48,007 nt of DNA from an uncultured Arenicella sp. Lineage in GTDB: Bacteria > Pseudomonadota > Gammaproteobacteria > Arenicellales > Arenicellaceae. The position numbers and the translations under genes are program-made. Below the pieces are notes generated by a model, which had not been told where the DNA came from, searched no databases, and saw nothing but the letters and a program-made list of their open reading frames with translations. How positions within the stretch are numbered: position 1 is the stretch's first letter; each line of letters begins with the position of its first letter. Positions 20,421 through 36,396 of the stretch are shown piece by piece. The stretch spans positions 1 to 48,007 of the forward strand of contig CAKZRZ010000194.1 of the NCBI GenBank assembly GCA_937918955.1, given 5' to 3'.

Positions 20421-21065
20421 GTGATGAATGCCACCAAAAAGATATTAGTTATAGATGATCACCATCTCTTTGCTGAAGGTTTGGCGATGATTTTAGAGTC
20501 CAGTGGTAACCAGTTTGAGGTAGAGACAAGCAACAACGCTCAATACCTTCTTACTGATTTAGACAAGCTAAAAGGTTTCGATTTGGTTCTTATCGACTTA
20601 CACATGCCTAACTTGTCTGGCTTTAGCTTTCTTAGTGCAGTAAATGCGCAATCACTAGCGATAGTCGTTGCGGTAATCTCTGGCTCTGATAAAAGAGTCG
20701 AAATTGAGCGAGCCATCAGCCTTGGAGCACAAGGTTTCATTCCCAAAGATAGCAGCAGCAAGGAGTTTATAAACGCGTCTAGCCAACTCTTACAAGGCAA
20801 GAGATACCTACCCTTGGCCTGGGACGGTGAGATAGATTGGAAAAGTGGTGACGACGAATCAATTCCCGATTCTGAAGCGCTGACCGAGCGTCAACATCAA
20901 GTGCTCGAGTTAATGCGCGATGGCTTGCAGAACAAGCAAATTGCATTGGTATTAGGAATTAAACCCTCTTCAGTAAAAGGCCATGTTGAGCGACTGTTTA
21001 CCAAGTTCAGCGTTAACAACAGAACATCCTGTGTCCAAATTGCGCAAGAACAGAAGCTTATTTAA
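20421..21065 (+). CDS. LuxR/FixJ-family response regulator
   Basis: KKILVIDDHHLFAEGLAMIL...LVLIDLHMPNLSG; C-terminal LTERQHQVLELMRDGLQNKQIALVLGIKPSSVKGHVERLFTKF HTH. Confidence 0.92.
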   Translation: MMNATKKILVIDDHHLFAEGLAMILESSGNQFEVETSNNAQYLLTDLDKLKGFDLVLIDLHMPNLSGFSFLSAVNAQSLAIVVAVISGSDKRVEIERAISLGAQGFIPKDSSSKEFINASSQLLQGKRYLPLAWDGEIDWKSGDDESIPDSEALTERQHQVLELMRDGLQNKQIALVLGIKPSSVKGHVERLFTKFSVNNRTSCVQIAQEQKLI

Positions 21066-22780
21066 GAGTTTAGAAGCTGATTAATCCTGAGCTTCAATTC
21101 TTCTGGGTCTACCGGTTTGTATAAGGTTGAGTATTGTTGAGCTTCAATTATTTTGTCAGGCGCGGTATCGCCGGTAATAAGAAGCGCCGGAATATCACAA
21201 TTGTATTCATCTCTAATTGCGTCAATTGCATCGATGCCAGTGAGGCCTTCTCGCAACCTAAGGTCACTAATAATAAGATCCGGAACGCTGTTTCGCTGTC
21301 TTAAAGTGACTAGTGCTGCTGACTGCGAGTCGGCGGTGACTACATCGCAGCCATAACTTGTAAGTAAATATTGCATTCCCTCTAAAATATTCTTTTCGTC
21401 ATCAATAACTAAAATGTACTTAGCCTTTAAAGAGACTGCCGGTTCCTGAATATCTTCATGTTCATTTGGCTTAGCCATACCCTGAGGGAGAGCAAGCTTT
21501 ACCTCAGTTCCTACATTTAGTTCAGACTCGATATTTAGCTCGATATTTGCAATCCCGCAAAGCCGTTTAACAATTGCTAGTCCCAACCCTAGGCCCTTTT
21601 CGCGATCACGCTCAGGGTTGTTCAATTGGTGAAACTCATCAAACACTATTGACATTTTATCTTCAGGAATTCCTATTCCGCTGTCGATAATTTTCACATA
21701 AACAAGATTGGTCTCGCTTGGCTCACATTCAATATTAATCTCACCTTCGTTAGTATATTTGATCGCGTTATCGAGAAGGTTATTTAAAATACGATAGAGA
21801 ATTGTTGGATCAGCGTAAACAATAACATCACTGGGAAGGTCAATCGTAATCGATATTTTCTTGGCGTTATGTCGATACTCTTCAGCAAGTTGATTAATAA
21901 TGGTCTGTAAAACTAGGTGCTTTGGGTTGTTTACTACTGTATCCGAATCCAAACGCGAAATATCTAATAGAGCATTTAGCATCCGATTTAGACCTGTTAA
22001 CGACTGTCGAATCTTTATTAAAATTTGTTTTCCCTTTGACTCACTCTGAAGTGGCACCAATGCTTCGGAAAATAACCCAATGGCGTTCAACGGTTGACGT
22101 AAATCATGACTCGCTGCGGCTAAAAATTTGTCTTTAGACGAAACTGCAGCTTGTGCTAGGTTTTTTTCATGGGCAAGCTGGTCGATAAGTCGTTCATTTT
22201 CATATTGAATCCCTACGGACTTAATAAATTGCTTGTGCATATTTGTTGATACTGCCGCCATCATAATTATGAAGTGAATCATTAATACGGCGATAGCATT
22301 GTTGTCAAACCCGCCTTCATAAAAAAGTCGGAACACAAACGGCATCGTGATTCCCAATGAAAAGGCAACGAATGAATATCTATAGATAGAACTCACGGCT
22401 AATGACGAAGCAACGTAGCCAGAATAGATTGAAACAATCACTACATAAAAGAACACCCTGTCATGTAGAAAAAAAATCGCTGGGGCTAGACTCCAAGTGA
22501 AGCCAACGCAAAATGCGCAAGCCATATTTGCGATTCTCCAACGTTGAATAGTGAAAATATTTTTATCGGGTACAAGCGCCTTCGTAACAAAGAACATAAT
22601 AATAGACGATGTCAAAGCGATGGCTAGCCAAACAAAAATAAGGTCGTCGACGCCCAGTGAACGTAAAATTAAAAAGGTCAAAACGCTAGTGATCGATTGA
22701 CCTATTAGCCTTGCTTTTGCGTGATCAGCTAAACTGCTAGCTCGTTCGTGATATAAATAGATTCTGAAGTTTGAGTCCAT
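21062..22780 (-). CDS. Membrane hybrid sensor histidine kinase with C-terminal receiver
   Basis: Multiple TM helices; AAASHDLRQPLNAIGLFSEAL H box, NLLDNAIKYTNEGEI N box, DSGIGIPEDK, GLGLGLAIVKRL; C-terminal ILVIDDEKN...ISDLRL receiver. Confidence 0.92.
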   Translation of the reverse strand: MDSNFRIYLYHERASSLADHAKARLIGQSITSVLTFLILRSLGVDDLIFVWLAIALTSSIIMFFVTKALVPDKNIFTIQRWRIANMACAFCVGFTWSLAPAIFFLHDRVFFYVVIVSIYSGYVASSLAVSSIYRYSFVAFSLGITMPFVFRLFYEGGFDNNAIAVLMIHFIIMMAAVSTNMHKQFIKSVGIQYENERLIDQLAHEKNLAQAAVSSKDKFLAAASHDLRQPLNAIGLFSEALVPLQSESKGKQILIKIRQSLTGLNRMLNALLDISRLDSDTVVNNPKHLVLQTIINQLAEEYRHNAKKISITIDLPSDVIVYADPTILYRILNNLLDNAIKYTNEGEINIECEPSETNLVYVKIIDSGIGIPEDKMSIVFDEFHQLNNPERDREKGLGLGLAIVKRLCGIANIELNIESELNVGTEVKLALPQGMAKPNEHEDIQEPAVSLKAKYILVIDDEKNILEGMQYLLTSYGCDVVTADSQSAALVTLRQRNSVPDLIISDLRLREGLTGIDAIDAIRDEYNCDIPALLITGDTAPDKIIEAQQYSTLYKPVDPEELKLRINQLLNS

Positions 22781-24044: not shown

Positions 24045-25025
24045 TTAGCCAAGCAAGTGAGCAATCGCTGCTCGCTCTTCACGCAGCTCGTTTTCAGTAA
24101 CGTCCATACGAGAACGACTGAATTCGCTGATTTCCAAGCCTTGTACAATCTCATACTTACCGTCTTTGCAGGTAACTGGGTACGAAAACATGATACCCGG
24201 CTCGATATCGTAGCTGCCATCGCTTGGGATGCCCATGCTAACCCAATCGCCTTCAGCAGTGCCCAAAGCCCAAGTACGCATATGGTCAATTGCTGCTGCA
24301 GCCGCTGACGCAGCACTTGATGCGCCGCGAGCTTTAATGATCGCCGCGCCGCGCTCTTGAACTGTTGGAATGAAGTTTTCCTCTAACCACGCTTGGTCAA
24401 CCAAGTCGGAAGCCGCTTTGCCACCAATAGTGGCATTGCTGATATCAGGATATTGAGTATTTGAGTGATTTCCCCAAACAGTCATACGCTTGATTTGAGT
24501 TGTGTGGGCACCAGTTTTTTCAGCCAATTGGCTCAAAGAACGATTGTGATCAAGACGCATCATGGCGGTGAATTGGCCTGGATCTAAATCAGGTGCATTG
24601 GCCGACGCGATCAAAGCGTTTGTGTTAGCAGGGTTACCTACAACCAATACCTTGATATCACGGCTAGCAACCTTATTCATTGCCTTGCCTTGTACCGAGA
24701 AAATTGCTGCGTTAGCTTCAAGTAAGTCTTTACGCTCCATGCCAGGTCCACGTGGGCGTGCACCAACAAGCAAGGCATAATCTGCGTCTTTAAATGCAAC
24801 TTCTGGGTCATCTGAGGTAACTACGTCTTGCAGCAATGGAAATGCACAATCGTTTAGTTCCATAACAACGCCGTCAAGCGCGCCCATGGCTGGAGTGATT
24901 TCCAATAATTGTAAGATCACTGGCTGGTCTTGGCCTAGCATAGCCCCAGAAGCGATGCGGAAAAGTAATGCGTAGCTGATTTGGCCAGCAGCACCGGTGA
25001 CGGTAACGCGAACTGGTTGTTTCAT
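24045..25025 (-). CDS. mdh: Malate dehydrogenase
   Basis: [85 protein letters not shown]. Confidence 0.96.
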
Positions 25026-25377
25026 GGTAGATCCTCGTAGAAAAAGTATAGGAAAGTGAACTATTTAAGTGGGCCGCAGTTTACTAAAAATAGCGAGTGG
25101 TGGCTACGATTTGCCAATCAGTACCGCAAATATCGCATATTTACTAAGCGTTTCTTAGCATTCGTTGATCAATTCTTCGACTTACCTCAGAAGATCATTA
25201 ACTAAACCATCGACCTTTCAACTAAACCAAAGTCCTAGAGCCAAATAGACAACTTGTCTTTATGCTCCGCATCACAATTAAAAAACACTTTCGACAAGCG
25301 ACAAAGTCTCTAGCTTTCAAAAAGCGACATTTAAATTAGAAGATTGTTGAAGAATGAATCACTAAGAGGAGTTGGGT

Positions 25378-27045
25378 ATGGGTTACGACAACACACGTTT
25401 TAGCAATTTAGTTTATAAAATTATCGGCACGCCAGAACGCTGGCACAGCGATTATATCGACGTAATGAACCAAGTGCTCGATGATAGCGCTCACATTGAC
25501 GACCCTAAAAATGTCACCGAGTTAAAAATTGGTGAACAAATTCTAAGTCAGATCAGCAATACCAATGAAGCGATGATGGCATTCGGGTCCCTGCTCGATA
25601 ATGGTCGCTTTAAAATGGTGATTTTAGACAGCGCCTATCAAGTGATCTACAACAATAAAACTGCCGACCAACTACTCGACTATCTGCTCGTCGACAAGAC
25701 CTCAAATCAACTAAAGCCAAGTGTTCTAAAAAAACTTGAACTCACAGCAAAACATAATCAAGAACTCGCTCTCAAAGCCAATCATAGTGGCCTATCAGCG
25801 ATGGACTATCTTGACCAAAACGATGAACAGGTTTACTTACGGTCAATTCATAGCCGCACCGACATTGATGGATCGCTATCGACTCATTACCTAGTTTTAG
25901 TCGTTGATCGAACAGCACGTAATAAAGCTCTGAACCCTGAATTCATTTCTCGATACGACCTCACCGATAAAGAGCAAGCTGTATTAGTGAAGCTGATTCA
26001 TGGCCAATCGATCAAACAACTTGCTGAAACGTCTTTTGTTTCTGGAAATACAATCAAGAGTCACCTCCAATCGCTTTACCGCAAAACCAATACTGCCTCA
26101 CAAGCTGAGATTATTCACTTGGCGCTCACTGATGAATCGCAAATTCTCGATACCTACTTCGGTATTCGAGAATCGATCTTGCCTCTTTTAGAAGAACAAA
26201 ATAAAGACAAATTTGTACGCTTGAGAAATGGGCACCAAATTGCCTACCGTGACTATGGCCCTGCCAATGGAGACGTGATTATCTTCTGTCACAATGGTTA
26301 CGGTAGCCGCGTGAGCATCCCGAACAACTATCGCCAAATTTGTGAGAGACAAAATAAACGCATAATTATTCCAGACCGACCGGGTTATGGTCTGACTCCT
26401 TATGCGGATCCAAGCGAATGGAACGCAATGTTAAACGAGTTTATCGATCTGCTCGGCATTCAACGCTATCAATTGTTAGGCAGCGTTTTAGGCTCAGCTG
26501 TAGCCTTAGATTTCGCGACTCAAGCCGACCAGCGGATGACTAAGTTGAGTCTCTGCTCTCCGGTTTTTATCAATCAAGAAAATGACGCTGATTATATGAC
26601 CGGGATTTTCGCCCCAGTCACGAGACTGATTAAAGCGTCAAAACGTATCACACTGGAAATCTATCAATTGTGGCTTAAAAGCGTAAGCCTTAATCTAGCG
26701 CAGCATTACGGCCAGATGCTAAGCAACAGCATTGGCTCGGCAGAAGTCGAGCAGTTTCAAAGGCAAGGGACTGTAAACCTAATGATCGATGGATTCATCC
26801 AAGCAAGCAGTAAAGGCTTAGATGGTATTGCCAATGATATGGTGCATTGCATGTCACCTAAGAACATTGACCTCACGCAAATAAATGTGCCGGTAACTCT
26901 ATGGTGGGGAAGCGAAGATGCTCGCATAAATCTAGACGGAGTTAAGCACATTGCAGCACAACTTAACGATACGACCGTGGAGGTGCGAGAAGGGTACAGC
27001 GAGCATATCTACTATGCTCTATTTGAAGAAATTATTAGTCAGTAG
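25378..27045 (+). CDS. Sensor-like N-terminus + LuxR-type HTH + alpha/beta-hydrolase fusion protein
   Basis: YDLTDKEQAVLVKLIHGQSIKQLAETSFVSGNTIKSHLQSLYRKTNTAS (LuxR HTH) followed by HQIAYRDYGPANGDVIIFCHNGYGSR...IIIPDRPGYGLTPYAD...YQLLGSVLGSAVALDFA (hydrolase fold). AGAGGAG RBS supports the ATG at 25378 over the TTG at 25372. Confidence 0.82.
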   Translation: MGYDNTRFSNLVYKIIGTPERWHSDYIDVMNQVLDDSAHIDDPKNVTELKIGEQILSQISNTNEAMMAFGSLLDNGRFKMVILDSAYQVIYNNKTADQLLDYLLVDKTSNQLKPSVLKKLELTAKHNQELALKANHSGLSAMDYLDQNDEQVYLRSIHSRTDIDGSLSTHYLVLVVDRTARNKALNPEFISRYDLTDKEQAVLVKLIHGQSIKQLAETSFVSGNTIKSHLQSLYRKTNTASQAEIIHLALTDESQILDTYFGIRESILPLLEEQNKDKFVRLRNGHQIAYRDYGPANGDVIIFCHNGYGSRVSIPNNYRQICERQNKRIIIPDRPGYGLTPYADPSEWNAMLNEFIDLLGIQRYQLLGSVLGSAVALDFATQADQRMTKLSLCSPVFINQENDADYMTGIFAPVTRLIKASKRITLEIYQLWLKSVSLNLAQHYGQMLSNSIGSAEVEQFQRQGTVNLMIDGFIQASSKGLDGIANDMVHCMSPKNIDLTQINVPVTLWWGSEDARINLDGVKHIAAQLNDTTVEVREGYSEHIYYALFEEIISQ

Positions 27046-27060
27046 TCTGCAAACAGAGCA

Positions 27061-29295
27061 CTAAACTTTGCGCTTCACTGACAGAACATTAGGTAAATGA
27101 TCGAGTTTCGCCAGCAAGTGGCTCATTGCCTCGAAACTTGTTACTTCAACAAGTGCTTCCATTTGAACCGATTGATTCTGAGCATCGGTTCGAGTCTTCA
27201 TCTCCAGCACATTGACCTTCTCATCGGCGAACACGGTAGACACATCACGCAATAGGCCTTTGCGATCAAAAGCATTGATCAGAACGGTCATCGGATAGAC
27301 ACGTTCTTGATTCTGCCCCCAGTTGACTTCGACTACCCGCTCGTCAGCTTCGTGCTTTTGATACAAAATATTTGGACACTCTTCTCTATGGATCGTTATG
27401 CCAGAGCCGCGTGTTACAAAACCGAGCACTCTGTCGCCCGGCACCGGCTGACAACATTTCGCCAGTGACGTCATTAAATCAGTAACGCCTTGAACACTCA
27501 TCTCGCTAGGCCGGGTATCATCGTTAGCCGCTCGACCAGCTTTAAAAGTCATTTCGAGCTGTTCTTCTTCGCTCAAATTATCAGGCTTTAACATCCGTTG
27601 TGCGATTGCCGCAGCGCGCCCTGGTTTGATAGAGCCATCGACCATTTTAAAATAAAGCTCTTCAGCATCTTCAACGCTTAACTTTTTAGCGAGTTGCTCC
27701 AGGTTTACATCACTAACATTCATGCGATCGAGTTCTCGATCTAATATAGTCCGCCCATGTGCGATGGTTTCATCTCGGTGCTCGTGACGAAACCAATGCT
27801 GTATTCCTGAACGTGCTCGGCGTGTTCTGACATAGCCTTTATGAGGGTCCAACCAGTCTAAACTTGGCCCCCCACTTTTAGCGGTGACAATGCTGACCTG
27901 CTCACCGGTTTTTAAACGATAAGTTAACGGCACCATCTTGCCATTAACCTTTGCGCCTCGGCATCGATGACCGACTTCGGTGTGTATTGAATAGGCGAAG
28001 TCTATCGGCGTGCTGCCGTAAGACAAATCAACAACCTTGCCCTTGGGACTAAACACGTAAACACGATCTTCAAAGACTTCATCTTTAACCCGATCAACAA
28101 ATTCGCTTGCATCAGCTACTTCCTCTTTCCATTCAAGAAGCTGCCTCAACCATAGGATCTTATTATTAACCGCTTGATCATTATCGGTGCTACCTTCTTT
28201 GTAGCGCCAATGTGCTGCAATGCCGAGCTCATTGTACTCATGCATTTCATGAGTTCGAATTTGAACTTCAACAACCTTGCCCGTGGGGCCGATGACGGCT
28301 GTGTGAATCGAGCGATAATTATTCTCTTTAGGGGTGGCAATATAGTCGTCAAACTCCCCAGGTATGAACTTCCAATTGGTATGAATCGACCCTAATGCGG
28401 CATAACAGTCTTTCACTGAGTCGACTAAAATTCTGACCGCTCGCACATCGAATAACTGCTCAAACTCTAAGCCTTTTTTTTGCATTTTAGACCAAATGCT
28501 ATAGATGTGTTTTGCCCTGCCACGAATCTCAGCATCGACGTTTTCGGCCTCTAGCTGGCTGGCAACATCGCTAATAAATTGGTCTATAAATGATTGTCGA
28601 TCAACACGACGTTCGGACAATTTTCGAGCGATGGTTTTATAGATATCGGGCTCAATGTAACGAAAGCTTAAATCTTCAAGTTCCCACTTTATTTGCCAAA
28701 CACCAAGCCGATTAGCTAAGGGAGAGAATATCTCGAGTGTTTCAGTCGCAACGCGCTTCTGTTTTTCAGCTTTAACCGCTCCGAGTGTTCGCATATTATG
28801 CAGCCGGTCGCAGAGTTTAATTAGTACAACGCGCACATCATCGACCATTGCCAGCATCATTTTGCGCAAACTCTCTGCTTTGGCTTCTTGCTTCGATTTA
28901 CGGCGGTTTGACTCGGTCTCAGTGAACTCTTGAATTACTTCCATTTTTGTTACGCCGTTGACTAAATTGGCAACGTCTTGACCAAAATTACTCGCCAACT
29001 GCGCCAGCGTAACGTCAGTGTCCTCTACTGTGTCGTGCAACAAAGCAGCAATGACTACGTCCGAATCGAGGCCTAGCTCGTGAACAATCGCGGCCACTGC
29101 GAAAGTGTGATTTACATAGTCTTCACCAGACGCACGTTTTTGACCACTGTGAGCATCTATTGCAAAATACGCCGCTTTTTCAATACGTTGAACGTCTTCT
29201 TGGGGCCGCCCACAGCCGATTTCCGACAACCATTGAGGTACATTGTCGGCTGGTAATTCCATTTCTGAAAGAGATTTTACTGCTGCGAGAACCAT
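27061..29295 (-). CDS. relA: RelA/SpoT family (p)ppGpp synthetase/hydrolase, RelA-like in the synthetase part
   Basis: HD: AALLHDTVEDTDVT, IKLCDRLHNMRTL; synthetase: FDVRAVRILVDSVKDCYAALG, GEFDDYIATPKENNYRSIHT; TGS VYVFSPKGKVVDL; ACT at the C-terminus. Confidence 0.93.
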   Translation of the reverse strand: MVLAAVKSLSEMELPADNVPQWLSEIGCGRPQEDVQRIEKAAYFAIDAHSGQKRASGEDYVNHTFAVAAIVHELGLDSDVVIAALLHDTVEDTDVTLAQLASNFGQDVANLVNGVTKMEVIQEFTETESNRRKSKQEAKAESLRKMMLAMVDDVRVVLIKLCDRLHNMRTLGAVKAEKQKRVATETLEIFSPLANRLGVWQIKWELEDLSFRYIEPDIYKTIARKLSERRVDRQSFIDQFISDVASQLEAENVDAEIRGRAKHIYSIWSKMQKKGLEFEQLFDVRAVRILVDSVKDCYAALGSIHTNWKFIPGEFDDYIATPKENNYRSIHTAVIGPTGKVVEVQIRTHEMHEYNELGIAAHWRYKEGSTDNDQAVNNKILWLRQLLEWKEEVADASEFVDRVKDEVFEDRVYVFSPKGKVVDLSYGSTPIDFAYSIHTEVGHRCRGAKVNGKMVPLTYRLKTGEQVSIVTAKSGGPSLDWLDPHKGYVRTRRARSGIQHWFRHEHRDETIAHGRTILDRELDRMNVSDVNLEQLAKKLSVEDAEELYFKMVDGSIKPGRAAAIAQRMLKPDNLSEEEQLEMTFKAGRAANDDTRPSEMSVQGVTDLMTSLAKCCQPVPGDRVLGFVTRGSGITIHREECPNILYQKHEADERVVEVNWGQNQERVYPMTVLINAFDRKGLLRDVSTVFADEKVNVLEMKTRTDAQNQSVQMEALVEVTSFEAMSHLLAKLDHLPNVLSVKRKV

Positions 29296-35030: not shown

Positions 35031-35600
35031 TTATTCCCCGACCACACCTAATTGAGGCGCTGATTCATGCCCCAAAATCTGGCGCATTTTTTTACGCGCT
35101 CTAAATAGTCTTGTCATCACGGCACTTGAACTGATGTCCAAAATCCCAGCGATTTCGTCACAAGAGAACCCACCTAACACTTGCATCTCAAGCGGCTCTC
35201 GATATTCTTCTGGCAACTTTTTCAAAGCATTTCGCAATGCGAAGGCTTCTGGGCGGTCGTCGTAGCCCATATGCGATGAATCCTCAATGGTGTCCATTGA
35301 TTCAACGTCTTTATACTGAAACTGCTTGCGTTCAAACTGTCGCGCATGCTCTCGGCGAAAAATCGTAAACAACCAACCTTTGGCGGCTTTGGCTTCTCGC
35401 AAACTGTCGAGCGACTTCCAAGCACGTAAAAAGGCTTCTTGCATGACGTCTTCGGCCATGTTCTTGTCTTTACAAAGCCACAATGCGTATTTATAAAGAT
35501 CTTTAGAATGCGCCTCAATTAAAAGGGCATATTTTCGTTTTTTATCCATCATGCTGTAGTTGACCTGTTCTTGGTCATTTTCATTACTTAAATCAGTCAT
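35031..35600 (-). CDS. ECF-type RNA polymerase sigma factor
   Basis: LYKYALWLCKDKNMAEDVMQEAFLRAWKSLDSL (sigma2) and LPEEYREPLEMQVLGGFSCDEIAGILDISSSAVMTRLFRARKKM (sigma4). Confidence 0.93.
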   Translation of the reverse strand: MTDLSNENDQEQVNYSMMDKKRKYALLIEAHSKDLYKYALWLCKDKNMAEDVMQEAFLRAWKSLDSLREAKAAKGWLFTIFRREHARQFERKQFQYKDVESMDTIEDSSHMGYDDRPEAFALRNALKKLPEEYREPLEMQVLGGFSCDEIAGILDISSSAVMTRLFRARKKMRQILGHESAPQLGVVGE

Positions 35601-36396
35601 AATTTTTATCTTTTTTGAAAAAGTTAACTAATGCAGCTAGTACAGCTTGCGGCTGCTCGGCATGAAGCCAGTGGCCTGCCTCGGGAATTTGTTCAAAACT
35701 CGCTTTGGGAAAGCGCTCTTTAACCACTCTATAATGCTCAGGGCCGACGTAATCGGACACTTCACCACTCAAAAATAGAGCACTAACATCAGAACTCATG
35801 GACATCTCAGGAAAACTGAGGATTTTGGGCATTTCTTCCAATAAAGTTCTTAAATTCAATCGCCATTCAAAGTTGCCAGCATTACCGACCAAGCTTTGAA
35901 GTAAGAATAATCGCGTAGCAGTGTCAGTAATGACCTCCGACAGCACCTTGTCAGCCTCTGCGCGAGACGCAATTGACGATAAATCTAGGTCTATCATTGC
36001 CTCAAGGTAAGGAGCGTGGGTATGAGAATATGATACTGGCGCAATGTCTAATACGGCGAGTTGATCAATTCGCTCAGAGTGCAGCAAACTGAAGACCATC
36101 GACGCTTTGCCGCCCATGCTGTGTCCACAAAGCTTGATTTTCTCGATCCCATGAGCATCCAAAAAACCAAGTAGATCACTCGCCAAATCATGATAACTAT
36201 GGGTCTCAGCATGAGGAGAGCGCCCATGATTGCGTTGATCCAACACGATTACAGGCCAATCGCTACTAAGCGCCTTAGCAAAACCCCGCCAATTAGTCGT
36301 TGAACCAAACAAGCCTGGCAGAATAAGCACCGGAATAGAGCCCTCATCACGATCTTCGAGTAAATCGCTTGGGTAACTTTGGTGATAGAGTTTCAT
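35593..36396 (-). CDS. Alpha/beta fold hydrolase (YbfF-like esterase)
   Basis: ILPGLFGSTTNWRGFAKAL, LDQRNHGRSPHA, LCGHSMGGKASM, EAGHWLHAEQP; 8-bp overlap with the sigma gene. Confidence 0.9.
   Translation of the reverse strand: MKLYHQSYPSDLLEDRDEGSIPVLILPGLFGSTTNWRGFAKALSSDWPVIVLDQRNHGRSPHAETHSYHDLASDLLGFLDAHGIEKIKLCGHSMGGKASMVFSLLHSERIDQLAVLDIAPVSYSHTHAPYLEAMIDLDLSSIASRAEADKVLSEVITDTATRLFLLQSLVGNAGNFEWRLNLRTLLEEMPKILSFPEMSMSSDVSALFLSGEVSDYVGPEHYRVVKERFPKASFEQIPEAGHWLHAEQPQAVLAALVNFFKKDKNYD

Follow-up and report, generated by a model that had tools for sequence, protein, structure and literature searches.

A LuxR-type protein of Arenicella carries a fused alpha/beta-hydrolase domain without catalytic serine and histidine and is a putative pseudo-hydrolase regulator

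Introduction

What purpose might an alpha/beta-hydrolase domain serve once it is joined to a DNA-binding domain and no longer carries the residues that would make it an enzyme? This question is raised by a single gene in the window, by which we mean the whole stretch of 48,007 nucleotides of DNA from an uncultured Arenicella sp. that was analyzed here. The gene lies on the forward strand at 25378..27045, begins with ATG (an in-frame TTG is present at 25372), and encodes a protein of 555 amino acids. Its parts are a PAS-like N-terminus, a LuxR-type helix-turn-helix (HTH) and an alpha/beta-hydrolase-fold domain, in that order.

Domain architecture of the fusion protein

A preliminary description of this DNA had placed a LuxR-type HTH and a subsequent alpha/beta-hydrolase domain within one open reading frame, and both domains indeed score above their Pfam cut-offs. 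The LuxR/GerE-type HTH occupies residues 195-249 (25960..26124, forward strand; PF00196, E 1.4e-10), scoring 41 bits against a cut-off of 23.5, and the surrounding residues 186-255 show zero amino-acid differences between the window protein and an 88%-identical orthologue. The hydrolase-fold domain, which is catalytically incomplete, extends over residues about 275-553 (26200..27036, forward strand): Abhydrolase_1 (PF00561) passes its Pfam cut-off at residues 300-398 (E 6.9e-8), a model of free-standing relatives matches the protein with 139.6 bits in hmmsearch, and profile comparison with intact relatives (hhalign) spans the entire domain. The N-terminal region, residues 1-185 (25378..25932, forward strand), is PAS-like; it has no direct Pfam match to a PAS domain, and aligns by hhalign with the N-termini of fusions that have an intact triad, some of which match PAS_8/PAS weakly.

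Over its full length the window protein is homologous to PAS-LuxR HTH-alpha/beta-hydrolase fusions of Pseudomonadota, many of which are without a full triad; against those with an intact triad, hhalign covers 539 columns (probability 100, E 3e-55) in the same domain order. The position of the HTH, at 195-249 of 555 with the hydrolase domain after it, is not the extreme C-terminal one that is usual, if not obligatory, for LuxR proteins; this internal placement had been correctly described before, and is common to the whole fusion family. The architecture is already visible in public annotation—for example, in Ruegeria sp. TM1040 (WP_011536845.1) and Aliiroseovarius (WP_260519347.1)—where such proteins are named merely "alpha/beta fold hydrolase" or "LuxR C-terminal-related transcriptional regulator". 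Matches of the window protein to the curated NCBIfam models all fall far under their cut-offs, a sequence search of solved structures returned none spanning both the HTH and hydrolase domains, and no relatives of the protein were found among the viral sequences scanned. By sequence, its nearest solved or curated enzymes are alpha/beta hydrolases of the BphD, acetoin and PHA-depolymerase types, which are free-standing enzymes with an intact triad. AlphaFold models, computed from shallow alignments (2 rows in the case of the full protein), have a mean pLDDT of 33 for the full protein and 39 for the hydrolase domain alone.

A triad without nucleophile or base

Active serine hydrolases are marked by a G-x-Nu-x-G elbow with Ser, Cys or Asp as the nucleophile, a feature absent from the window protein. 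Its elbow, G368-S369-V370-L371-G372, aligns with the G-x-S-x-G of free-standing and fused relatives, so the nucleophile position is held by Val370 (codon GTT, 26485..26487, forward strand). Since the aligned residue is Ser in the free-standing homologues and in intact fusions, the replacement of Ser by Val proposed in the preliminary description is borne out. Among 26 distinct Arenicella homologues of 43-100% identity, the position is Val in 17, Ile in nine and Ser in none; exchange between these two residues, to the exclusion of any other, indicates from the alignment that position 370 is selected for a branched aliphatic side chain. A sequencing error is ruled out as the source of Val370, because the same codon is present in the orthologue and every Arenicella homologue carries Val or Ile.

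The acid of the triad, which in this fold follows strand 7, is present as Asp514 (26917..26919, forward strand) and is kept in 26/26 Arenicella homologues, as had been suggested. The same cannot be said of the catalytic His after strand 8, which was previously described as apparently kept, within a GYSEH motif, and is, by alignment, missing. When the protein is compared with ten intact-triad fusions by hhalign, the C-terminus aligns ungapped, with Glu542 (GAG, 27001..27003, forward strand) opposite the catalytic His and His543 (CAT, 27004..27006, forward strand), the residue formerly put forward as the base, opposite Phe. MAFFT, applied to all sequences, gives the same register: 27/27 free-standing relatives have His in column 542, and 26/26 Arenicella proteins have Glu or Asp there (25 Glu, one Asp). 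The earlier assignment is most likely a one-residue misalignment. With Val or Ile at the nucleophile and Glu at the His position, the Ser-Asp-His triad is, on these alignments, now Val/Ile-Asp-Glu in the Arenicella clade.

A further residue accompanies this change. Arg516 (26923..26925, forward strand), two residues past Asp514, is found in 26/26 Arenicella proteins and in 0/92 of the other aligned sequences, fused and free-standing alike. Together, Asp514, Glu542 and Arg516 may constitute a rewired charge cluster, and the combination of V/I-D-E with Arg516 sets the Arenicella clade apart from the other fusions as a distinct branch with substitutions of its own.

Loss of Ser need not abolish all chemistry, and the domain might still be an enzyme of a Ser-independent kind, operating for instance through a dyad of His and Asp in which His543 sits on a shifted loop, and making the protein a bifunctional enzyme-regulator. 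Cofactor-free dioxygenases of the alpha/beta-hydrolase fold rely on His and Asp more than on Ser, and the conservation of D514 (26/26) and H543 (25/26) would suit such a scheme, as would two relatives with an Asp-Asp-His arrangement (considered below), in that some members of the family could still be chemically active. However, the ungapped profile alignment puts His543 one residue past the catalytic His, where Glu542 stands; one orthologue (L007) has Tyr at 543; and in the second paralogue group of Arenicella the G-x-Nu-x-G elbow itself is eroded (GSIIAC). On balance, we regard persistent catalysis as quite improbable.

Conservation and gene neighborhood in Arenicella

Homologues are present in 16 of 18 Arenicella genomes, the window's own included, and fall into two paralogous groups; the 88%-identical copy is from an uncultured Arenicella. 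Strong purifying selection acts on the gene: relative to that orthologue, dN/dS is 0.042 for the whole protein and 0.053 for the hydrolase domain, with dS near saturation. These data bear directly on whether the domain is merely a decaying relic, a functionless chance fusion or an assembly error. Loss of catalytic residues, taken by itself, would fit such an origin, but all 26 Arenicella homologues are free of frameshifts, the domain dN/dS is about 0.05 and synteny is conserved; selection and conservation thus refute this explanation, to which we assign almost no credence.

At the group A loci, the regulator gene stands single between a divergent and a convergent neighbor. The former is mdh, encoding malate dehydrogenase (24045..25025, reverse strand), which recurs at 15/15 other Arenicella orthologous loci; the latter is a relA-like (p)ppGpp synthetase gene (27061..29295, reverse strand), which recurs at 13/15, the exceptions being one locus cut by a contig end (L016) and one with no relA match in the available stretch (L008). 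In one Arenicella genome (G004), and in family- and order-level relatives, relA adjoins mdh with no group A gene between, which suggests that the gene was probably inserted there within Arenicella. Group B paralogues have different neighbors, including in some genomes a DAHP synthase-like gene identified by eye. Phage or plasmid origin was considered and rejected: there is no phage match, and the plasmid matches are distant.

The intergenic region between the regulator gene and mdh gives no fold or promoter signal better than shuffles. A block within it, AGTKTACTAAAAAT, was entertained as a target of the regulator and rejected, since a near-identical block lies upstream of mdh in G004; being kept in a genome that lacks the regulator gene, the block is read as an mdh promoter element. 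Upstream of mdh, the conserved block AGTTTACTAAAAAT (25078-25091), kept at the majority of Arenicella loci and little changed in G004, is probably the mdh promoter.

The genus holds further proteins of this type. G004, the genome without a group A gene, has an HTH-hydrolase fusion with an in-frame TAA stop in its hydrolase domain (L026/L050/L127; G004:C15:192800-194000), possibly a pseudogene. More distant HTH-hydrolase fusions (L044, L045, L046, L047, L048 and L049) carry M, N, Y or S as the nucleophile residue; several fusions with differing residues at this position suggest that one genus may maintain several parallel pseudo-hydrolase regulators.

Recurrent triad loss among HTH-hydrolase fusions

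Is the Arenicella protein an isolated case? Pseudomonadota genomes and plasmids were searched using the window protein itself, an alignment of the Arenicella homologues and one of mixed fusions; these seeds included broken-triad members, and the searches yielded a set of 91 fusions: 26 from Arenicella and 65 further distinct ones, among them that of Ruegeria sp. TM1040. A second search of largely the same genomes, seeded with intact-triad members only, returned no further fusions. An HTH model of the LuxR type, whose 28 seeds are mainly unfused proteins with a few fusion fragments among them, matches 91/91, and Pfam GerE (E 0.05) matches 47 of the 64 non-Arenicella fusions scanned.

Across this set the nucleophile position is variable: Ser occurs in 24 fusions, Val in 20, Gly in 10-11, Ile in nine, Gln in eight, Asp in seven, Met and Ala in four each, and Asn, Thr, Cys and Tyr once each. 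The nearest free-standing relatives have Ser in 27/27. Only 12/91 fusions have a complete triad, defined as Ser/Cys-Asp/Glu-His, compared with 27/27 of these relatives, and all of the intact fusions lie outside Arenicella (12 of 65). The disparity persists after clustering at 40% identity, with complete triads in 6/39 fusions and 10/10 free-standing proteins (Fisher p 9.7e-7).

On a tree of fusions and free-standing relatives built without the catalytic columns, the deep branches of which are weakly supported, the distinction between fused and free-standing proteins amounts to one change, whereas the Ser state requires at least seven by parsimony. From this number, and because the replacements differ by branch, triad loss among the fusions is, on the aligned sequences, recurrent. 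Rooting on the free-standing enzymes makes an ancestor with an intact triad the natural reading, although parsimony itself gives no direction. In the open-access literature, a scope that leaves most subscription journals and preprints outside, we found no description of this pattern of triad loss or of LuxR-hydrolase pseudo-enzyme fusions.

Two fusions (L081, 2461-4098, and L105) have an Asp nucleophile together with the Asp and His of the triad, giving D-D-H; the elbow of Ruegeria TM1040 reads GYDAGA. Dehalogenases and epoxide hydrolases likewise employ an Asp nucleophile, and both fusions may be active enzyme-regulators. If so, the pseudo-hydrolase would be the majority state among fusions and not a rule.

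In both Ruegeria (L081, 2461-4098) and Pseudosulfitobacter (L083, 2368-4125), a VWA-domain gene lies upstream of the fusion gene and on the other strand, with one gene intervening in Ruegeria; the VWA-domain gene is a possible conserved context in these two genera.

A candidate sensing or interaction module

Taken together, the genus-wide absence of Ser, the additional loss of His, the purifying selection and the prevalence of broken triads among fusions favor the proposal, already made in outline in the preliminary description, of a pseudo-hydrolase within a one-component regulator. In our assessment the window protein is probably such a regulator, its hydrolase fold being non-hydrolytic and serving as a module that senses or interacts. 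In this scheme, a PAS-like N-terminus and LuxR-type HTH would be followed in the same chain by an alpha/beta-hydrolase domain devoid of hydrolytic activity, and selection would keep the fold for sensing or interaction. A pocket beneath a cap, in which an aliphatic side chain would replace the nucleophile and the putative Asp514/Glu542/Arg516 cluster would lie, could bind a small metabolite, probably hydrophobic or carbonyl-bearing; alternatively, the domain could bind a protein partner. Either event would be expected to alter engagement of DNA by the HTH.

Precedents for such use of the fold exist, most instructively in plants. The gibberellin receptor GID1 has lost the catalytic His of its alpha/beta-hydrolase fold, while its Ser and Asp remain and make contacts with the hormone; DAD2, by comparison, keeps its triad and is catalytically active (PMC3531792). 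DAD2/D14 and KAI2 are alpha/beta-hydrolase folds that serve signaling, as proposed here for the Arenicella protein. The likeness to GID1 consists in a hydrolase fold with lost triad residues, and any sensing role is extended to the bacterial protein by analogy. The differences are that the Arenicella protein has lost both Ser and His, and that its DNA-binding domain resides in the same chain. A GID1-like class would be recognized by a fold that stays under selection although one or more essential triad residues are gone; the window protein bears this mark, and the best reading of the comparison is that GID1 would be its closest functional analogue, independently derived.

A bacterial precedent points in a somewhat different direction. 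In Escherichia coli, Aes, a separate alpha/beta-hydrolase with esterase activity, controls the LuxR-type regulator MalT by direct contact (PMC2805673). Here too a hydrolase fold controls a LuxR-type HTH regulator, the difference being that two separate proteins are involved. Aes-MalT, in which a hydrolase fold acts on an activator of the LuxR type (PMC2805673), is thereby a precedent for those who would see in the fused domain a purely structural or protein-protein module—for dimerization, partner docking or a DNA-facing surface—with no small ligand. Many clade-specific invariant residues, including P413, E427, Y429 and W432, lie between elbow and acid, the site of the cap in the alpha/beta-hydrolase fold, and could form an interface; moreover, the fusions as a whole let triad residues vary freely, with S, V, I, G, Q, D, M, A, N, T, C and Y all represented. 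Within Arenicella, however, the former active site is tightly constrained, admitting V/I only, D only, E/D only and R516 only at its positions, a pattern suggesting that this site continues in use. A ligand-free structural role is, in our view, unlikely, if less so than retained catalysis.

Returning to the sensing or interaction module, the recurrence of triad loss suggests that bacteria may repeatedly have made a hydrolase domain into a built-in sensor. A broader proposition, which we advance tentatively and with rather more doubt than conviction, is that HTH-fused alpha/beta-hydrolases comprise a large, previously unrecognized class of bacterial one-component receptors, arising via repeated independent destruction of the triad and forming a counterpart to GID1; the intact-triad fusions would then represent an ancestral trigger-enzyme state. 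If this is true, bacteria would offer a series that begins with an active HTH-fused hydrolase, passes through losses of single residues and ends with a pseudo-hydrolase regulator that has become fixed, and the evolution of hydrolases into receptors would become directly testable in single proteins that are easy to express. Many Pseudomonadota proteins annotated as "alpha/beta fold hydrolase" would, in that event, probably be regulators without hydrolase activity.

Other hydrolase and GerE genes in the window

The window also encodes two ordinary alpha/beta hydrolases, at 669-1427 (Abhydrolase_2) and 35593-36396 (Abhydrolase_1), the latter with a canonical GHSMG elbow that contrasts with that of the Val370 protein. 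Elsewhere, a GerE response regulator gene (20421-21065, forward strand) overlaps the end of a convergent hybrid histidine kinase/receiver gene (21062-22780, reverse strand).
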